From a virus, in the IMG/VR virus record IMGVR_UViG_3300012203_000002, positions 1 to 42,875 of that record: a stretch of DNA of 42,875 nucleotides; one strand, 5' to 3'. Of the stretch, positions 1,560 to 42,875 are shown piece after piece (position 1 is the first letter of the stretch; each line of letters opens with the position of its first letter). Made by a program: the position numbers and the translations under genes. The notes beneath the pieces were generated by a model. That model was given only the letters and a program-made list of their open reading frames with translations, did not search any database and was not told the origin of the DNA.

Positions 1560-1997
1560 ATGTCATTGGAATCTAAGATTGATCTTGGAGTGAAATGCGA
1601 CGGAATTGGAGTCAGGCCGAAGAAATCAGAAGTTTATAGGCTAGCGGCGGAACTATTAGAAATTGAGGAGATTAGAAACCCGGAAGGAATCTCATTCTTT
1701 GGACCAACAATAGTTAATGCATTGAGAGCGTACGCAGGAGAGGATAGATCCATTGACGGAGTTAATGATTACATGTATATGGGAGCTGATGATTACATGT
1801 ATATGGGATATGATTATTATAGCTATACTTATGATCGTAGTTATTTTGATTATGGGTATGCTGGGCCTGAGGAGAATTATGGGTATAAGGAGAATTATGG
1901 ATATGATAGGCCTTATGGATATGCTGACTTCACAGAACAAGAGAAAATAATTGCTCTGTTGTTCTTGGCAGCAATGCATGAATCTAAGGGAGACTGA
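1560..1997 (+). CDS. Tyr-rich low-complexity protein A, 145 aa
   Basis: Unknown function. Three parts are visible: a conserved-looking N-terminal region (residues 1-65, with KKSEVYRLAAELLEIE at 21-36); a Tyr/Asp/Gly-rich middle (about 69-123) made of near-repeats such as DYMYMG and ENYGY; and a short helical C-terminus (125-140, EQEKIIALLFLAAM). The two end regions match those of the neighbouring protein at 2369-2701, so the two are paralogs with a divergent core. The middle is encoded by imperfect DNA repeats (gatgattacatgtatatggg twice, 1766-1810). A clear ribosome site (ggagaat) precedes the ATG by 8 bases, and the same leader sequence precedes the paralog. It could be an acidic decoy or assembly protein, but no function is shown by sequence. 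Confidence 0.88.
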   Translation: MSLESKIDLGVKCDGIGVRPKKSEVYRLAAELLEIEEIRNPEGISFFGPTIVNALRAYAGEDRSIDGVNDYMYMGADDYMYMGYDYYSYTYDRSYFDYGYAGPEENYGYKENYGYDRPYGYADFTEQEKIIALLFLAAMHESKGD

Positions 1998-1998
1998 G

Positions 1999-2295
1999 AT
2001 GAGCTCGGATAGGAGTAAATCCTCTCAGGTTCCCACATTCAGGGTATCTTTGAGCTTGGAAGAGATTGAAGTTATAGTGGATTCATTAGAAGCAATTTCC
2101 GAAAATGCAGCTCTCCAAGGCAAATTGACTCTGGTACTATTTAAAGCATCAAGCGGGCTCAAATCTCCTGATTATGTGCGGACAGGGGCGCGGACCTCCG
2201 AAGTTATATCTGTTGCGAAGCTTGCAGAAATTGATGAGTTCGACACGGAGGCATATATGGCGCAATTGGAGAAAGAGCAGAAGGATCGGAAATAG
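1999..2295 (+). CDS. Unknown small protein, 98 aa
   Basis: Unrecognised. The start at ATG 1999 is chosen over an upstream in-frame ATG at 1951, because aaggga just before it gives a ribosome site and the gene then begins 2 bases after the stop of the Tyr-rich gene. The N-terminus is Ser-rich (MSSDRSKSSQ); the middle is helical (LSLEEIEVIVDSLEAISE); the C-terminus is charged (AYMAQLEKEQKDRK). It has no cysteines or membrane segments. It lies between the two Tyr-rich paralogs and is probably co-transcribed with them. Confidence 0.8.
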   Translation: MSSDRSKSSQVPTFRVSLSLEEIEVIVDSLEAISENAALQGKLTLVLFKASSGLKSPDYVRTGARTSEVISVAKLAEIDEFDTEAYMAQLEKEQKDRK

Positions 2296-2368
2296 TCTAG
2301 AAGTTCACGCGCACACATGCGCTCACACATGCGATTACCCTCACCATTACCATTTTGGAGAATATACC

Positions 2369-2701
2369 ATGGCATTAAAATCTAAAATTAAATGTAACGG
2401 CCTTAAACCAACGAAAAGCGAAGTTTATAAATTGGCAGCGGAATTAACAGAGATTGAAGGGCATAGGTATTTTAAGAGTACAATACTTGAAACATTGCTG
2501 CATTATGATTATGATTATGAGGATTATTATTATGATGATGATTATGATTATGATTATTATGATGATTATTATGCTGATGATTATGCTGATGATTATTATG
2601 ATGATTATTATGATTATAACTATGATTATAACTATGATCTTTCGCAGGCAGAAAAAGTAATTGCTCTTTTGTTCCTTTCCGCAATGTGCACAAAAGAATA
2701 G
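2369..2701 (+). CDS. Tyr/Asp-rich low-complexity protein B, 110 aa
   Basis: Paralog of the protein at 1560-1997. N-terminus 1-45 (KSEVYKLAAELTEIE at 16-30) and C-terminus 91-107 (SQAEKVIALLFLSAM) match that protein closely. The core, residues 46-90, consists almost only of Asp and Tyr, with a few Glu, Ala and Asn. The DNA for the core is a gat/tat microsatellite (about 2503-2637). The start at 2369 is favoured over longer in-frame reading because ggagaat precedes it by 8 bases and the homology with the paralog begins there (MALKSKI versus MSLESKI). The strong negative charge of the core would fit a DNA-mimic or antirestriction role, or a disordered condensing protein; that is speculation. Confidence 0.88.
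   Translation: MALKSKIKCNGLKPTKSEVYKLAAELTEIEGHRYFKSTILETLLHYDYDYEDYYYDDDYDYDYYDDYYADDYADDYYDDYYDYNYDYNYDLSQAEKVIALLFLSAMCTKE
2503..2637. repeat. GAT/TAT trinucleotide microsatellite inside a gene
   Basis: Nearly pure runs of gattat and gatgat words code for the Asp/Tyr core of the preceding gene. Because the units are multiples of three, slippage would change core length without breaking the frame. Confidence 0.9.
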
Positions 2702-2845: not shown

Positions 2846-3133
2846 ATGAGCAGTTCTCGATTCGCAATTAATTCAGCGGGTTCCCATCTCTTTACGCTTA
2901 TTGCTATAAACAAACTCACACGAGATGCACATATCTGTACCTATGGCCTTGACGGTCCAATTCTAACCACTGATCTTAAAGAACTTACAGCGTATAGAAC
3001 CATTCTTAGGACCCATTACGGCAAAGAGTTTAATTATGAATTGATGCAAGTATCTCCCATGATTCCAGAGATTGAATCGGAATCAAATTCGGAATCAAAA
3101 TCGGAATCAACTCCTGGGAGGTGCACACCATGA
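2846..3133 (+). CDS. Unknown protein with Glu-Ser repeat tail, 95 aa
   Basis: Unrecognised. Residues 1-75 look like a small folded domain with no clear motif. Residues 77-90 are a Glu-Ser/Asn repeat (ESESNSESKSES) coded by 12-base tandem units of tcggaatcaaat type (about 3078-3112). The ATG at 2846 has ggagaat 8 bases upstream, the same leader as the two Tyr-rich genes. The stop codon overlaps the next start as ATGA (3130-3133), so the two are translationally coupled. The acidic tail may be a recent repeat-driven extension. Confidence 0.82.
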   Translation: MSSSRFAINSAGSHLFTLIAINKLTRDAHICTYGLDGPILTTDLKELTAYRTILRTHYGKEFNYELMQVSPMIPEIESESNSESKSESTPGRCTP

Positions 3134-4185
3134 GCAGAGTATTATGCGCATATAGCGGCGTAGAATACCGAGTGGATCATTTCTCTCTGTATCTTACTGA
3201 GCGAGAGGATGCACACCCAATCTTTTCTCTGCCCGCTTCTAGACTCCTAGAACTCGCGCCAAATTATCTAAACTGTGAATTCTCCACAACCGAGAATTAT
3301 CTGTATTACCTTGCGCTATTCAATTCTACAGGTCTTATGCAGTTCCGAGTTCCAGCGATGCAGACTGCTGGAACTGCCGGAATCGTTGCACAAAACTGTT
3401 CTCACCTGATTCGCATGGTAGAGGTTATTCAATCAATCGGAGTGGATCAAGCACGCATTACTCTCAGCTTGCCGCAATTCTCAATCTCTCCTGAGACTAA
3501 GGATTTAGCTACTTCTAAGTATTGGATATCTCTGTGGCTCCAGAACCATGCGGACTATCTCACAGGGTACAAGACTCGCACAGAACTTGAAAAACTAACT
3601 CATAAGGAGACTATTCTTGAGCGCTTCATTAAGGACAAAACTAAAAGTCTCGATCAATATGCGCCACAATTGGCTGAATGGGCCGCACTTGCTGCGGGCT
3701 TTTCTACTGATACTCAGATTGTGGCAGATGGTACAGCCAATGATAAGCCGATAGAATTGCGAGAGTATTGGAAAAAACTCATTCGCATGTGCGCAAAAGA
3801 AGAAACTATCTATGCGATCCATGACGGAGATCTCTCTGAACTCACGGATCATTGTGAAGATATGATCGACCATGGATCAATCCAAGCGCATTTGTTAATG
3901 ACGGTATTGCGAACTGTGGCACGTAAAAAGAAACAGTATCTTGATTTAGGAGATATTGATATTGATGAGCGAGGTACGACATTCCGAATTCTAGATGCCT
4001 CAGCTTCCATTGAAGACGCGAATAAATTAGCTCTTATTGATTCTGCGCCTATCGAGGAACCAAGGCTTATCGCATATCCGAATCGTCTTGCATACCTGAA
4101 AGCTCGGATGAAGTGGGAACTAGCACAAGCATACAGAACCTCGGAAGCAATAAGGGCAGCAGGAGCGCAAGCTCAATCATTATAA
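3130..4185 (+). CDS. Unknown phage protein, 351 aa
   Basis: No family recognised with confidence. A CAYSGVEY motif at residues 6-13 at the very N-terminus resembles half of a zinc-binding or bacteriophage-type finger, but no second cysteine pair is obvious. The rest is mixed alpha/beta with a helical C-terminal third rich in Lys/Arg (RTVARKKKQYLDLGD) and an Ala-rich end. The ATG at 3130 is chosen, with gggagg 8 bases upstream; a GTG at 3121 is part of that ribosome site. It overlaps the previous gene by four bases (ATGA). Its place directly before the helicase genes suggests a replication or transcription accessory role, by position only. Confidence 0.85.
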   Translation: MSRVLCAYSGVEYRVDHFSLYLTEREDAHPIFSLPASRLLELAPNYLNCEFSTTENYLYYLALFNSTGLMQFRVPAMQTAGTAGIVAQNCSHLIRMVEVIQSIGVDQARITLSLPQFSISPETKDLATSKYWISLWLQNHADYLTGYKTRTELEKLTHKETILERFIKDKTKSLDQYAPQLAEWAALAAGFSTDTQIVADGTANDKPIELREYWKKLIRMCAKEETIYAIHDGDLSELTDHCEDMIDHGSIQAHLLMTVLRTVARKKKQYLDLGDIDIDERGTTFRILDASASIEDANKLALIDSAPIEEPRLIAYPNRLAYLKARMKWELAQAYRTSEAIRAAGAQAQSL

Positions 4186-4219: not shown

Positions 4220-4234
4220 AGAGGAAACGTCCAA

Positions 4235-4657
4235 ATGTCAGATACTATCAATTCACGTAAGTTATCTCTCTTAGACAAGGCCATGGCCTATGCTAAGATC
4301 ATCAAGCCCTTAACTCCTCAAAGACTCTCAACATTGGAGTCCTATAAGAAACACGGAGTAACACGGAATCAAGTAGCAAGCATGATGGTAAATCTATTCC
4401 ACTATCCTGCAAATTTCCGGGATACTTTAGAGCATTATTATATTCTCCACTGGACAGGAAAACATTTTGACTCGATTCTGGAAGAAGGCGCAATTTTCCA
4501 CGCTGACTCTGGATTCAGCTATCTTGTAGTATATCAAGGGTGTACGCCTTATGCAGCTAGGCGCGCTAAGCAATTGAAACTCTCTTTTCGGAAAGCATCA
4601 GTAGATTTCGGGCTACAGGCCTATGTAATTGTAAGAACTATTCAGGACTCAGAGTAA
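4235..4657 (+). CDS. Unknown protein, 140 aa
   Basis: Unrecognised. Mostly helical N-terminal half with a stretch that could be a helix-turn-helix (about residues 36-62: SYKKHGVTRNQVASMMVNLF); the C-terminal half is mixed and ends YVIVRTIQDSE. The HTH reading would make it a possible early regulator, but helix 2 lacks a strong consensus. The start ATG 4235 has a purine-rich site (gagagg) upstream. It sits 50 bases after the 351-aa gene and 42 before the helicase. Confidence 0.75.
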   Translation: MSDTINSRKLSLLDKAMAYAKIIKPLTPQRLSTLESYKKHGVTRNQVASMMVNLFHYPANFRDTLEHYYILHWTGKHFDSILEEGAIFHADSGFSYLVVYQGCTPYAARRAKQLKLSFRKASVDFGLQAYVIVRTIQDSE

Positions 4658-4699
4658 TTTCGAGCTGCGCAATTTCGATACTAAATTCAAGGAACTAAC

Positions 4700-6394
4700 A
4701 TGACACTACCCTCAAGCACACAAACTAGGCTAGCTGATCTCCTAGCTAAAGCCAGAGCACAGAAAGCTGATTCAGTTCCAGTTCCAATGATTCATCTTGT
4801 GGAAAACAAATCCACTGAAATCAATTCTCATGCACTTAATTCAGATATATCACAATCAACTGATCGCTTTGGTAACATAATCACATTCAATGAACAACAA
4901 GTTCAATTTATGAATGTAGCTACCAAGGGAGAGTCTTGCATTCTTATTGGAGCAGCTGGTACAGGAAAAACGAGTTGTATGAAAGGAGTAGTTCAGCAAT
5001 TAATAACCACTGGCTATGCAGGTATCCTTCATTCCGATGGGCACAAATACCTAACAGACTCTACTCCCGGAATCGTAGCTGTGTCTTTTACTCGACGTGC
5101 GGTAGCAAATCTTCGCCGCGCAATGCCAGATGATATGAAAGGTAACTGTCTCACCATTCACGCAATTCTTGAATACGAGCCAATCTACTATTCTGTAACT
5201 GATGAAACTACTGGGGAAGCACGCAATACTATGCGCTTTGAACCTACTCGCACAGTAGATCGTCCACTACCTACATCTATTCGTACTTGTATCATTGATG
5301 AATCTTCCATGGTGTCTGTTGAACTATTCAGGGAGTTACAAAATGCGCTACCGTCGAATTGCCAATTCATCTTTCTTGGGGATATCCAGCAACTCCCGCC
5401 GGTATTCGGATCAGCTATCTTGGGCTTTAAGATGCTTGAACTACCTACGATTGAGCTTGTGCAAGTCTACAGACAGGCCTTGGAGAGTCCAATCATACGT
5501 CTCGCTCATAGAATTCTATCAGGTAAACCTATCCCGCATGATGAGTACGCAGAGTGGAAATATCCTGGGCAGCTTACAATTCATCCATGGAAGAAAAAGC
5601 TAAGCCCGGAAATTGCAGCCCTCACAATCTCCAAATTTCTTACAACTGCGATTGAAGCGGGTGCATACGATCCTGAAAATGATATGGTACTTATTCCTTT
5701 TAATAAAGCATGCGGAACAATTGAAATAAACGCGAGAGTTGCGAACTTTCTAGCAAGGAAAAGGGGCGCAATTACTTATGAGATCATTGCAGGATTTAAT
5801 AAATTATATTTCTCAACCGGAGATAAGGTGCTATATGATAAAGAAGATGCTGTTATTGTTGATATTAAAATCAACGCTGGGTACACTGGCGCTGCTCCTC
5901 AGGTTTCAGCAGCTACTCTTGATTATTGGGGGTTTAATACAGGGGAAGAACCTACCACGGTTAAATCAGATTCGGAGGACTCTGGGGATGATATTGATTT
6001 CTTGCTCTCTCAATCTGTTGCGCTTAGTGGTGAAGATTCAGATCGCGTACGCCAAGCATCCCATTCAGTAACTGTACGAATGGCGGACACAGATAAGGAG
6101 GTAGTTCTTGATTCCGCTGCTGATCTTAATTCTTTGCTCCTCTCATATGCTCTCACAATCCACAAGGCGCAAGGAAGTGAGTGGCGCAAAGTATTCTTGA
6201 TGCTCCATAACTCTCATGCAACAATGCTGAGTCGGGAACTTTTGTACACCGGGGTTACCCGTGCTAAATCTGAGCTTTATATAATCTGTGAGCCTGATTC
6301 AATGGTTAAAGGCATCTTGTCTCAGAGAATCAAAGGGGATACCCTAGCCGAGAAAAGTGAATACTTTAAAGGAAAAGTCACAACTAAGAAATAA
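4700..6394 (+). CDS. SF1 DNA helicase (RecD/Dda/Pif1 type), 564 aa
   Basis: ATP-driven DNA helicase, probably acting in phage replication or recombination. Visible motifs are Walker A GAAGTGKT (residues 84-91), motif Ia-like AVSFTRRAVANLRR (about 126-140), Walker B IIDESS (198-203), motif III GDIQQLPP (227-234), motif IV-like QVYRQ, motif V LTIHKAQGSEW and motif VI LYTGVTRAK near the C-terminus. This order fits the SF1B group with a UvrD-like C-terminal domain. An acidic insert (SDSEDSGDDIDF) precedes motif V. The N-terminal ~60 residues are a variable extension. A good aagga site precedes the ATG. The HNH gene follows closely and may be a recent insertion after it. Confidence 0.93.
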   Translation: MTLPSSTQTRLADLLAKARAQKADSVPVPMIHLVENKSTEINSHALNSDISQSTDRFGNIITFNEQQVQFMNVATKGESCILIGAAGTGKTSCMKGVVQQLITTGYAGILHSDGHKYLTDSTPGIVAVSFTRRAVANLRRAMPDDMKGNCLTIHAILEYEPIYYSVTDETTGEARNTMRFEPTRTVDRPLPTSIRTCIIDESSMVSVELFRELQNALPSNCQFIFLGDIQQLPPVFGSAILGFKMLELPTIELVQVYRQALESPIIRLAHRILSGKPIPHDEYAEWKYPGQLTIHPWKKKLSPEIAALTISKFLTTAIEAGAYDPENDMVLIPFNKACGTIEINARVANFLARKRGAITYEIIAGFNKLYFSTGDKVLYDKEDAVIVDIKINAGYTGAAPQVSAATLDYWGFNTGEEPTTVKSDSEDSGDDIDFLLSQSVALSGEDSDRVRQASHSVTVRMADTDKEVVLDSAADLNSLLLSYALTIHKAQGSEWRKVFLMLHNSHATMLSRELLYTGVTRAKSELYIICEPDSMVKGILSQRIKGDTLAEKSEYFKGKVTTKK

Positions 6395-6403
6395 AGGTTC
6401 AAA

Positions 6404-6458
6404 TCCCTTGTGTATATAAGTATCAAGGCGTGTAAAGATGTTTCATATTCACAAGGGA
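6404..6458 (+). promoter_or_regulatory. Hairpin that can hide the HNH gene ribosome site
   Basis: Arm tcccttgtg (6404-6412) is the exact reverse complement of cacaaggga (6450-6458), which contains the Shine-Dalgarno sequence of the HNH gene starting at 6465. Transcripts reading through from the helicase would fold and block translation. A transcript starting within the loop would not. This arrangement parallels the known control of phage homing endonucleases such as T4 I-TevI; for this phage it is inference. Confidence 0.6.
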
Positions 6459-6464
6459 GATTAT

Positions 6465-6932
6465 ATGTTACCTAAACACACTGATCTAACAGGCCGTTTC
6501 TATGGTAGACTTATTGCCATTAAGCGAATAGGAACTAAGCACGATTGTGCATTGTGGTTTCTTCGATGTTACTGCGGTAATTCTGTAGAAGCAACTATTG
6601 GAGAATTAAGGCGCGCAAGAAAGCCTCGCGTATCCTGTGGGCATTGTTTAGATGTTCAGAAGTACCCAAGCGAGTACATAACTTGGCGTAATATGAAACT
6701 TAGATGCTTTGACTCTAAGAATAAAGATTATCATAATTATGGAGGCAGAGGTATTACTGTAGACCATAGATGGCAAATGGATTTTCTTTATTTTTTAGAG
6801 GATATGGGATTAAAGGATAATGAATTCCTAACTTTAGATCGAATAGACGTTAATGGTAACTATGAGCCTAACAATTGCAGATGGCTTTATAGATCATTAC
6901 AAGCCGGGAATAAAAGAAATACAATTAGGTAG
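6465..6932 (+). CDS. HNH homing-type endonuclease, 155 aa
   Basis: Probable free-standing mobile endonuclease. N-terminal region with paired cysteines C35/C37 and C58/C61 (a likely zinc site), then a TWRNMKLRCFD segment (73-83), NYGGRG (91-96), and the HNH/beta-beta-alpha-metal core HRW (101-103), TLDRID (123-128) and NGNYEPNNCRW (130-140). This pattern is common in phage HNH proteins next to AP2-like regions. The ATG at 6465 is preferred to one at 6438, because aaggga lies just upstream and homology begins at GRFYGRLIAI. It lies between the helicase and the unknown 238-aa gene, separated from neighbours by its own leader, as expected for an invader. No intron boundaries were seen. Confidence 0.9.
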   Translation: MLPKHTDLTGRFYGRLIAIKRIGTKHDCALWFLRCYCGNSVEATIGELRRARKPRVSCGHCLDVQKYPSEYITWRNMKLRCFDSKNKDYHNYGGRGITVDHRWQMDFLYFLEDMGLKDNEFLTLDRIDVNGNYEPNNCRWLYRSLQAGNKRNTIR

Positions 6933-6971
6933 CTACTAATGAGAGGAAACTATAATCCTATAACTAACAAA

Positions 6972-7024
6972 CTTCGGGGATTCTGTAACTAACTCAATTC
7001 GCCCCTCTTGACACGTCCCCGAAG
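6972..7024. promoter_or_regulatory. Perfect 9-bp inverted repeat around the promoter before 7129
   Basis: cttcgggga (6972-6980) and tccccgaag (7016-7024) are exact inverted repeats 35 bases apart. The right arm overlaps the spacer of the strong promoter at 7008-7036. It could be a pair of operator half-sites, or an RNA stem that ends readthrough from the HNH gene. Confidence 0.5.
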
Positions 7025-7036
7025 CTCTGGCATACT
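7008..7036 (+). promoter_or_regulatory. Strong sigma70-type promoter
   Basis: Consensus -35 TTGACA (7008-7013), a 17-base spacer, and -10 CATACT (7031-7036), with the expected start near 7043. It points at the gene at 7129, about 86 bases downstream. Confidence 0.7.
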
Positions 7037-9300: not shown

Positions 9301-9590
9301 GCACGAGCGATGGATTTCCTATTGAGTCTTTACTTACTCTGTATTCCCGCGCTCACAAACGCGATGTGTATTGTGACTATTTCAAGGGATTTAAATTACT
9401 CTTGACTTGGCTAGGTCCAATTGCATACCCAGACATAGAGCCAATTCCTATCCCTTGGTATGTGCGATCCTATGAGTTACAGGAACTTGCAAGGCATTTA
9501 GAAATCTCACAGCAAAAACTATATACGATTTGTGAAAGAATAAATCATGGCCTCGAATCCAATTCCAATTCCAATTCCAATTCCAATTGA
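9297..9590 (+). CDS. Unknown protein with Ser-Asn repeat tail, 97 aa
   Basis: Unrecognised. Residues 1-86 form a possible helical domain (SLLTLYSRAHKRDVYCDYF; YELQELARHLEISQQKLYTICERI). The last part (about 67-86) has helix-turn-helix flavour: a helix, 'EIS.QKL', a helix. The final 10 residues are (Ser-Asn)5, read from a ccaatt hexamer repeat. The last 44 bases overlap the start of the exonuclease gene, which reads the same repeat in another frame as Pro-Ile. Confidence 0.75.
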   Translation: MSTSDGFPIESLLTLYSRAHKRDVYCDYFKGFKLLLTWLGPIAYPDIEPIPIPWYVRSYELQELARHLEISQQKLYTICERINHGLESNSNSNSNSN

Positions 9591-11444: not shown

Positions 11445-11785
11445 AACCTCATAAAACTTCTAAGCCTCTTGCACCTGAGCCTCCAACAGTTCTAGAATCT
11501 GCTCACGCTATTATCTATGGTGAGCGAGAAGAAACTTATGGCGATCCTGCTAAGAATCTACGAGTAATCGCAGAGTATTGGAGTACCCATATCAGTGCAA
11601 CATATGGAATTCGTGTCTACTTGACAACCTCAGATGTGTGTAGTATGATGGTTCTATTGAAGCAAGCGCGTCTTACTAATGATCCAGCTCATCGGGACTC
11701 AGAAGTAGATGTGTGTGGATATACAGCATTGCGTGAGCGGTGCCGTAGTAGTGGTAGTGGCAGTGGTAGTGGCAGTACTCTCTAA
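11441..11785 (+). CDS. DUF6378-type protein with Gly-Ser tail, 114 aa
   Basis: Contains the pattern I associate with DUF6378 phage proteins: YGEREETYGDPAKN (26-39), MMVLLKQAR (69-77) and HRDSEVDVCGY (84-94). The family is helical and MazG-like in look; its biochemical role is not settled, and nucleotide pool or house-cleaning has been suggested by analogy only. The C-terminus is a Ser-Gly repeat coded by alternating agtggt/agtggc units (about 11744-11775), another repeat-made tail. Start ATG 11441 overlaps the Sak4-like gene stop. A consensus promoter for the next gene is embedded in its coding region. Confidence 0.85.
   Translation: MKPHKTSKPLAPEPPTVLESAHAIIYGEREETYGDPAKNLRVIAEYWSTHISATYGIRVYLTTSDVCSMMVLLKQARLTNDPAHRDSEVDVCGYTALRERCRSSGSGSGSGSTL
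11621..11649 (+). promoter_or_regulatory. Consensus sigma70 promoter inside the DUF6378 gene
   Basis: TTGACA (11621-11626), a 17-base spacer, TATGAT (11644-11649): eleven of twelve consensus bases at ideal spacing. The transcript would start near 11656 and serve the ssDNA-binding-like gene at 11852. Confidence 0.7.
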
Positions 11786-42673: not shown

Positions 42674-42805
42674 ATGAAATACCTTTATCGTGAAACTCAA
42701 TTGGATGCATTGTACTGTGTAGCTGAGTACAAAGAACTGGGGTATGCAGGGTATGTGGTAGGGAAGATCGGAGGCTTTTGGGAAGTGCGGGTGTGGAAAG
42801 CGTAA
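42674..42805 (+). CDS. First early gene, 43-aa aromatic protein across the join
   Basis: Reads MKYLYRETQLDALYCVAEYK and ends GFWEVRVWKA; it is rich in Tyr, Gly and Trp, with a beta-strand-like second half. It has a good ribosome site (taggaga) 5 bases before the ATG and lies right behind the early promoter. Its C-terminal third is inside the terminal repeat, so its end appears again at positions 1-53 of the window, supporting circular continuity. Small early proteins at this place are commonly host-takeover factors; this one is not recognised. Confidence 0.8.
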   Translation: MKYLYRETQLDALYCVAEYKELGYAGYVVGKIGGFWEVRVWKA

Positions 42806-42875
42806 TGAGATATAGGACATAGGAGTGATTAGACACATGATCCTGACTCGGGACATGATCCTGACTCGGGACATG
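42753..42875. repeat. Terminal direct repeat, right copy
   Basis: Identical to 1-123. See the left copy. The duplication should be counted once when computing genome length (42,752 bp unique). Confidence 0.95.

Follow-up and report, generated by a model that had tools for sequence, protein, structure and literature searches.

The window studied here comprises the 42,875 bp of a virus record. An exact 123-bp direct repeat is found at its two ends (1-123 and 42753-42875), so that the genome, of about 42.75 kb, is probably complete. The large terminase shares 32-37% identity with the terminases of Aeromonas phage P5, Polaromonas phage Tiera and Pseudomonas phages 119X/PaP2. Relatives of this terminase are encoded by 94 IMG/VR stretches, with 51-71% identity among the 80 that were kept. 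On the + strand, the genes follow one another in the order p204, A, C, B, D, E (3130-4185), F and a Dda/RecD-like helicase. ORFs A and B sit on the early-side strand of a podovirus-type phage, 'early' being deduced from this gene order. Just after p204, a terminator-like hairpin of 15 pairs (932-967) is followed by about 590 nt of non-coding DNA dense in repeats. A promoter scan stayed at chance level (9 found as compared to 8.5 expected). Downstream of the helicase, an HNH endonuclease gene is present (6438-6932; phrog_374, 1e-48), which possibly codes for a homing endonuclease.

ORF A (1560-1997, + strand) codes for 145 residues from an ATG start. Its N-terminal block is followed by a core rich in Tyr, Gly, Asp and Met and by a C-terminal helix block. 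The core (1767-1931, + strand) spans 55 codons (Y18 D8 G7 M4) and contains tandem units of 24 and 18 bp. ORF B (2369-2701, + strand; 110 aa, ATG start) is a paralog of A with a core of 45 codons (2504-2638, + strand; Y21 D19 A2 N2 E1). Between them, ORF C (1999-2295, + strand; 98 aa) starts 1 nt after the stop codon of ORF A. It stands outside the A/B family and belongs to a family kept in relatives, with tblastn matches in loci L087 (2e-4) and L109 (2e-7). The leaders of A (1547-1559) and B (2356-2368), both on the + strand, resemble each other and carry an SD-like GGAGAAT. This word had been put forward as a feature common to the pair. The DNA identity between A and B indeed continues through the leader, but GGAGAAT is likewise found ahead of gene D (2846), which is unrelated, so that the word alone is no evidence of kinship.

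The original prediction of a paralogous pair with conserved ends was borne out. A chance alignment of the ends was examined with 20,000 shuffles per end, and both real scores exceeded every shuffle. The BLOSUM62 local score was 96 for the N ends, as compared to a shuffle maximum of 48, and 57 for the C ends, as compared to a maximum of 46. When ORF A was used as a query against its own genome, ORF B was recovered at E=1e-5 and nothing else was. A and B are thereby confirmed as diverged paralogs. Over the aligned N end, 16 codons are identical, 11 differ synonymously and 18 non-synonymously, the differences being distributed as 17/12/20 over codon positions 1/2/3. Frame 0 contains no stop in either core and frame +2 contains 12 in the A core and 21 in the B core; frame +1 is also open. 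This codon pattern is modest, yet the 11 synonymous differences of the N end, together with the stop-free, phase-locked cores, favour translation of A and B.

The middle parts of the two proteins had been described as differing completely. This is not so, since Tyr is abundant in the core of A (18/55) as well as in that of B (21/45), though no DNA repeat unit is common to both. High Tyr content is a core property common to A and B. In 5000 first-order Markov sequences of the same composition as the A core, the mean number of Tyr was 6.3 and the maximum 15, as compared to the 18 observed. Part of this Tyr content could result from the duplication of Tyr-bearing units; the A core also includes Tyr-dense segments without duplication. 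In the mildly acidic A core, 11 of the 55 residues are acidic and 3 are basic. The corresponding values are 20 and 0 of 45 for the B core and 27 and 10 of 110 for the whole of ORF B.

The codons of the B core are 21 TAT, 19 GAT, 2 GCT, 2 AAC and 1 GAG, and 42 of the 45 end in T. Given a genome usage of 77% TAT and 79% GAT, the absence of any TAC or GAC has a joint probability of about 5e-5; the B core is therefore read as a recent triplet expansion. Its description as about 45 residues of nearly pure Asp and Tyr was right. It is however not a pure gat/tat microsatellite, because the array is degenerate, with 84% matches at a period of 39. The departures from TAT/GAT (GAG, GCT, AAC) are all non-synonymous and none is synonymous, so that no purifying selection for Asp or Tyr is visible in B.

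As anticipated for cores that grow while preserving the reading frame, the TRF periods in both cores (12, 15, 18, 24, 27 and 39) are all multiples of three. Repeat growth in this genome is not confined to A and B. Genome-wide, tandem arrays with a period that is a multiple of three outnumber the others by 22 to 3 in coding DNA and by 12 to 10 in intergenic DNA, these counts being indicative only as the rows overlap. With 10 tandem arrays per 10 kb, the window ranks third of 57 over its first 11 kb, the median of the 56 related loci being 2.8. A higher density, 11.8 per 10 kb, was measured for L163 and L174. Further short coding repeats in frame occur at 9558-9588 (PIPIPIPI), 3075-3110 (ESESNSESKSES) and 11748-11776 (GSGSGSGS).

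Relatives carrying the same end blocks around other cores, as first envisaged, were not encountered. End-block profiles run at maximum sensitivity on syntenic loci from about 70 genomes gave no relative of A or B (best E about 0.2). Viral contigs, phages and prokaryote genomes scanned with A, B, the A/B alignment and end-only patterns, and plasmids scanned with A only, returned chance matches only. L186 was rejected as a homolog, as it reads as an NAD-epimerase-like protein with one stretch in common. L187, L188 and L190 were also rejected; they are short ORFs having only EKVIALLFLA in common. The contig scans need near-exact short peptide seeds, and records very near the window have possibly been left out. 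For gene E, a single-sequence scan found nothing and an alignment scan found 100 stretches encoding relatives. The negatives of the contig scans are weak since the single-sequence scan missed the relatives of gene E, and the stronger negative for A/B comes from the profile searches of syntenic loci. Sequence searches of Pfam, PHROGs, NCBIfam, PADLOC and the PDB with A and B gave nothing credible, neither of them matched the phrog_18326 profile or that of any other family at E<0.01, and no Tyr-rich phage effector of the A/B type was found in the literature searched. A and B are called orphan in the sense that neither occurs in the syntenic relatives or the annotated collections covered by these searches.

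Most relatives fetched around the helicase retain the order p204-E-helicase, and so do 12 loci that are closer in gene E. Detectable homologs of C and D are present in some relatives, and the p204-to-E interval is otherwise variable. In some relatives, this interval contains unrelated proteins with the A/B build, that is, conserved ends and a low-complexity core. Proteins of the phrog_18326 type were found there in L085, L087, L156, L178, L161 (two), L078/L093 and L098. The profile was matched directly by L085 (6162-6737), L156 (3009-3461) and L098, while L087 (reverse complement, 4223-4786), L178 (2742-3218) and L161 (2408-2944 and 3151-3852) were assigned by similarity to those. In L085, L087, L156, L161 and L178, the cores are Ala-rich, bear Asp, Tyr and Asn, are coded by triplets and differ in length. 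The two L161 proteins are in tandem, and those of L156 and L178 have N and C ends in common around a different core. Other proteins of this build in the interval are encoded by L127 (2380-3081), by L085 (5332-6126, DUF7666-like with a match under the gathering cut-off) and by L159 (a Cys/Asn-repeat protein). NNT codons (GCT, GAT, TAT, AAT) make up 71-94% of the relatives' cores, as compared to 31-39% of the flanks; the exceptions are L098, with 40%, and L159, with 51%. Of 62 loci, 6 have low-complexity genes upstream of E and none has any in the stretch downstream, a rough comparison as the downstream stretch is mostly helicase. Overall, the process of core growth looks general across related viruses. 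Proteins with Cys-Asn-x repeats (CNYCNNCDSC...) are found at L159 970-1590 (phrog_15341/31567) and at L043 16077-16610 (reverse complement).

The phrog_18326 proteins resemble A and B in their conserved N and C ends, in a low-complexity core with Asp and Tyr, in their location between p204 and E and, for most members, in core triplets of the GCT/GAT/TAT type. They differ in that their ends have no detectable homology to those of A/B (hhalign probability of 0.1%) and in that their core is mainly Ala rather than Tyr/Asp. Similarly, the DUF7666-like L085 protein and the L127 protein lie in the same interval and have an NNT triplet core between non-repetitive ends, but these ends are others and the core is dominated by Ala. 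No described family had been thought to have the build of A/B. Indeed, no family matched A or B, but phrog_18326 has this build at the same locus. The novelty therefore does not lie in the build. What is unusual is the Tyr/Asp core, because a survey of low-complexity regions in prokaryotes and phages (PMC6821194) reports that aromatic residues are heavily under-represented. For phages, it gives a mean length of 33 aa and an enrichment in Ala, Gly and Pro. The A/B cores, with 45-55 aa, are somewhat longer than this phage mean and contain 33-47% Tyr.

As no homologs were found, the fold of the ends rests on AF2 models of low confidence. The model of ORF A (pLDDT 41) has helices at residues 22-39, 48-58 and 126-140, plus a weak one at 68-81. 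That of ORF B (mean pLDDT 50) has helices at 16-27, 33-45 and 93-106. Both models place two helices on the N-terminal side and one on the C-terminal side of a poorly defined, mostly coil core. A Foldseek search with the low-confidence B model was uninformative, no viral fold reaching E<=0.001.

We consider, with a probability of about 50%, that A and B represent a duplicated, lineage-specific accessory protein of the early side, in which helical ends surround a slippage-grown, Tyr-rich loop. They would be diverged copies of one small phage protein located in a variable interval. According to the low-confidence models, the three short helices may pack into a small module from which the core would protrude as a disordered, exposed loop. 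This loop would lengthen through replication slippage in frame, as presumably happens in the unrelated proteins found at the same locus in sister phages. A slippage-grown loop between helical ends is likely. In favour of the reading as a whole, the codon signature with T at the third base recurs in most of the Ala/Asp/Tyr-cored proteins of the interval. The protein might serve as an accessory factor of host takeover, the aromatic loop offering multivalent, sticky contacts to a host partner; such a host-binding role is put forward only tentatively. We regard as rather doubtful the wider idea that the variable early-side interval of this clade acts as a nursery, where triplet slippage would repeatedly build low-complexity loops in unrelated small scaffolds and where A/B would be the Tyr/Asp version, its aromatic loop selected to bind or condense a host target. 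In this pair, a single scaffold exists in two copies that acquired different repeat cores, and unrelated proteins at this locus did likewise. Comparison of isolates and reads makes the slippage origin of new phage protein segments directly testable here. Selection on Tyr, if real, would be notable given the under-representation of aromatics in prokaryotic and phage low-complexity regions.

The core may also be a near-neutral filler grown by slippage and tolerated in a loop, with the helical ends alone at work and Tyr/Asp as a by-product of the expanded triplets. We see this as a possibility of lesser weight. The region is prone to repeats, and the B core leaves TAT/GAT only through non-synonymous changes. 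However, the A core reaches its high Tyr content with repeat units other than those of B and with Tyr-dense segments that owe nothing to duplication, and its Tyr count lies above all the Markov sequences. The proposal that Tyr-rich cores drive condensates or self-association in a sticker-spacer manner, with the ends as recruiting modules, appears improbable. The composition would suit it, with aromatic residues alternating with acidic ones in B or with Gly in A, mostly in coil in the low-confidence models, but the cores are short and the strong acidity of the B core would cause repulsion.

Antirestriction by DNA mimicry was part of the original prediction and is now disfavoured. By analogy with T7 Ocr, an acidic protein would block restriction enzymes, RecBCD or nucleoid proteins. 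The early-side location and the size and acidity of B (27 acidic residues of 110, near the 34 of 116 of Ocr) would fit with such a small acidic phage protein. However, in the folded Ocr dimer, acidic surface residues match the phosphates of DNA, and each 116 aa contain 34 acidic residues and 6 basic ones (PMC2806950), whereas the charge of B is placed in predicted coil. Moreover, strong acidity is not a family-wide trait, the A core having only 11 acidic residues of 55; Tyr, not strong acidity, is what the two proteins have in common. With no family or fold match either, we judge this mimicry very unlikely. Finally, spurious ORFs opened by chance in repeat DNA, as could be suspected from the lack of homologs and from the open +1 frame of both cores, can be practically discarded in view of the paralogous ends with synonymous swaps, the leaders, the 1-nt spacing between A and C and the repeat periods in frame.

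Some short proteins of L101, which resemble A/B in layout, were also considered as homologs. phmmer made no connection between them and A/B-like proteins and we do not claim homology. They are three short neighbours on the reverse complement (5839-6066, 6381-6584 and 6804-7028) with hydrophobic endings (VILFILEADKQGDF, FLLLILESEGA and FVLLILESEEYHG). One protein of this trio, that at 5839-6066 (MKLSSSTVKK...YMYGYYYPY...VILFILEADKQGDF), has a Tyr-rich middle.
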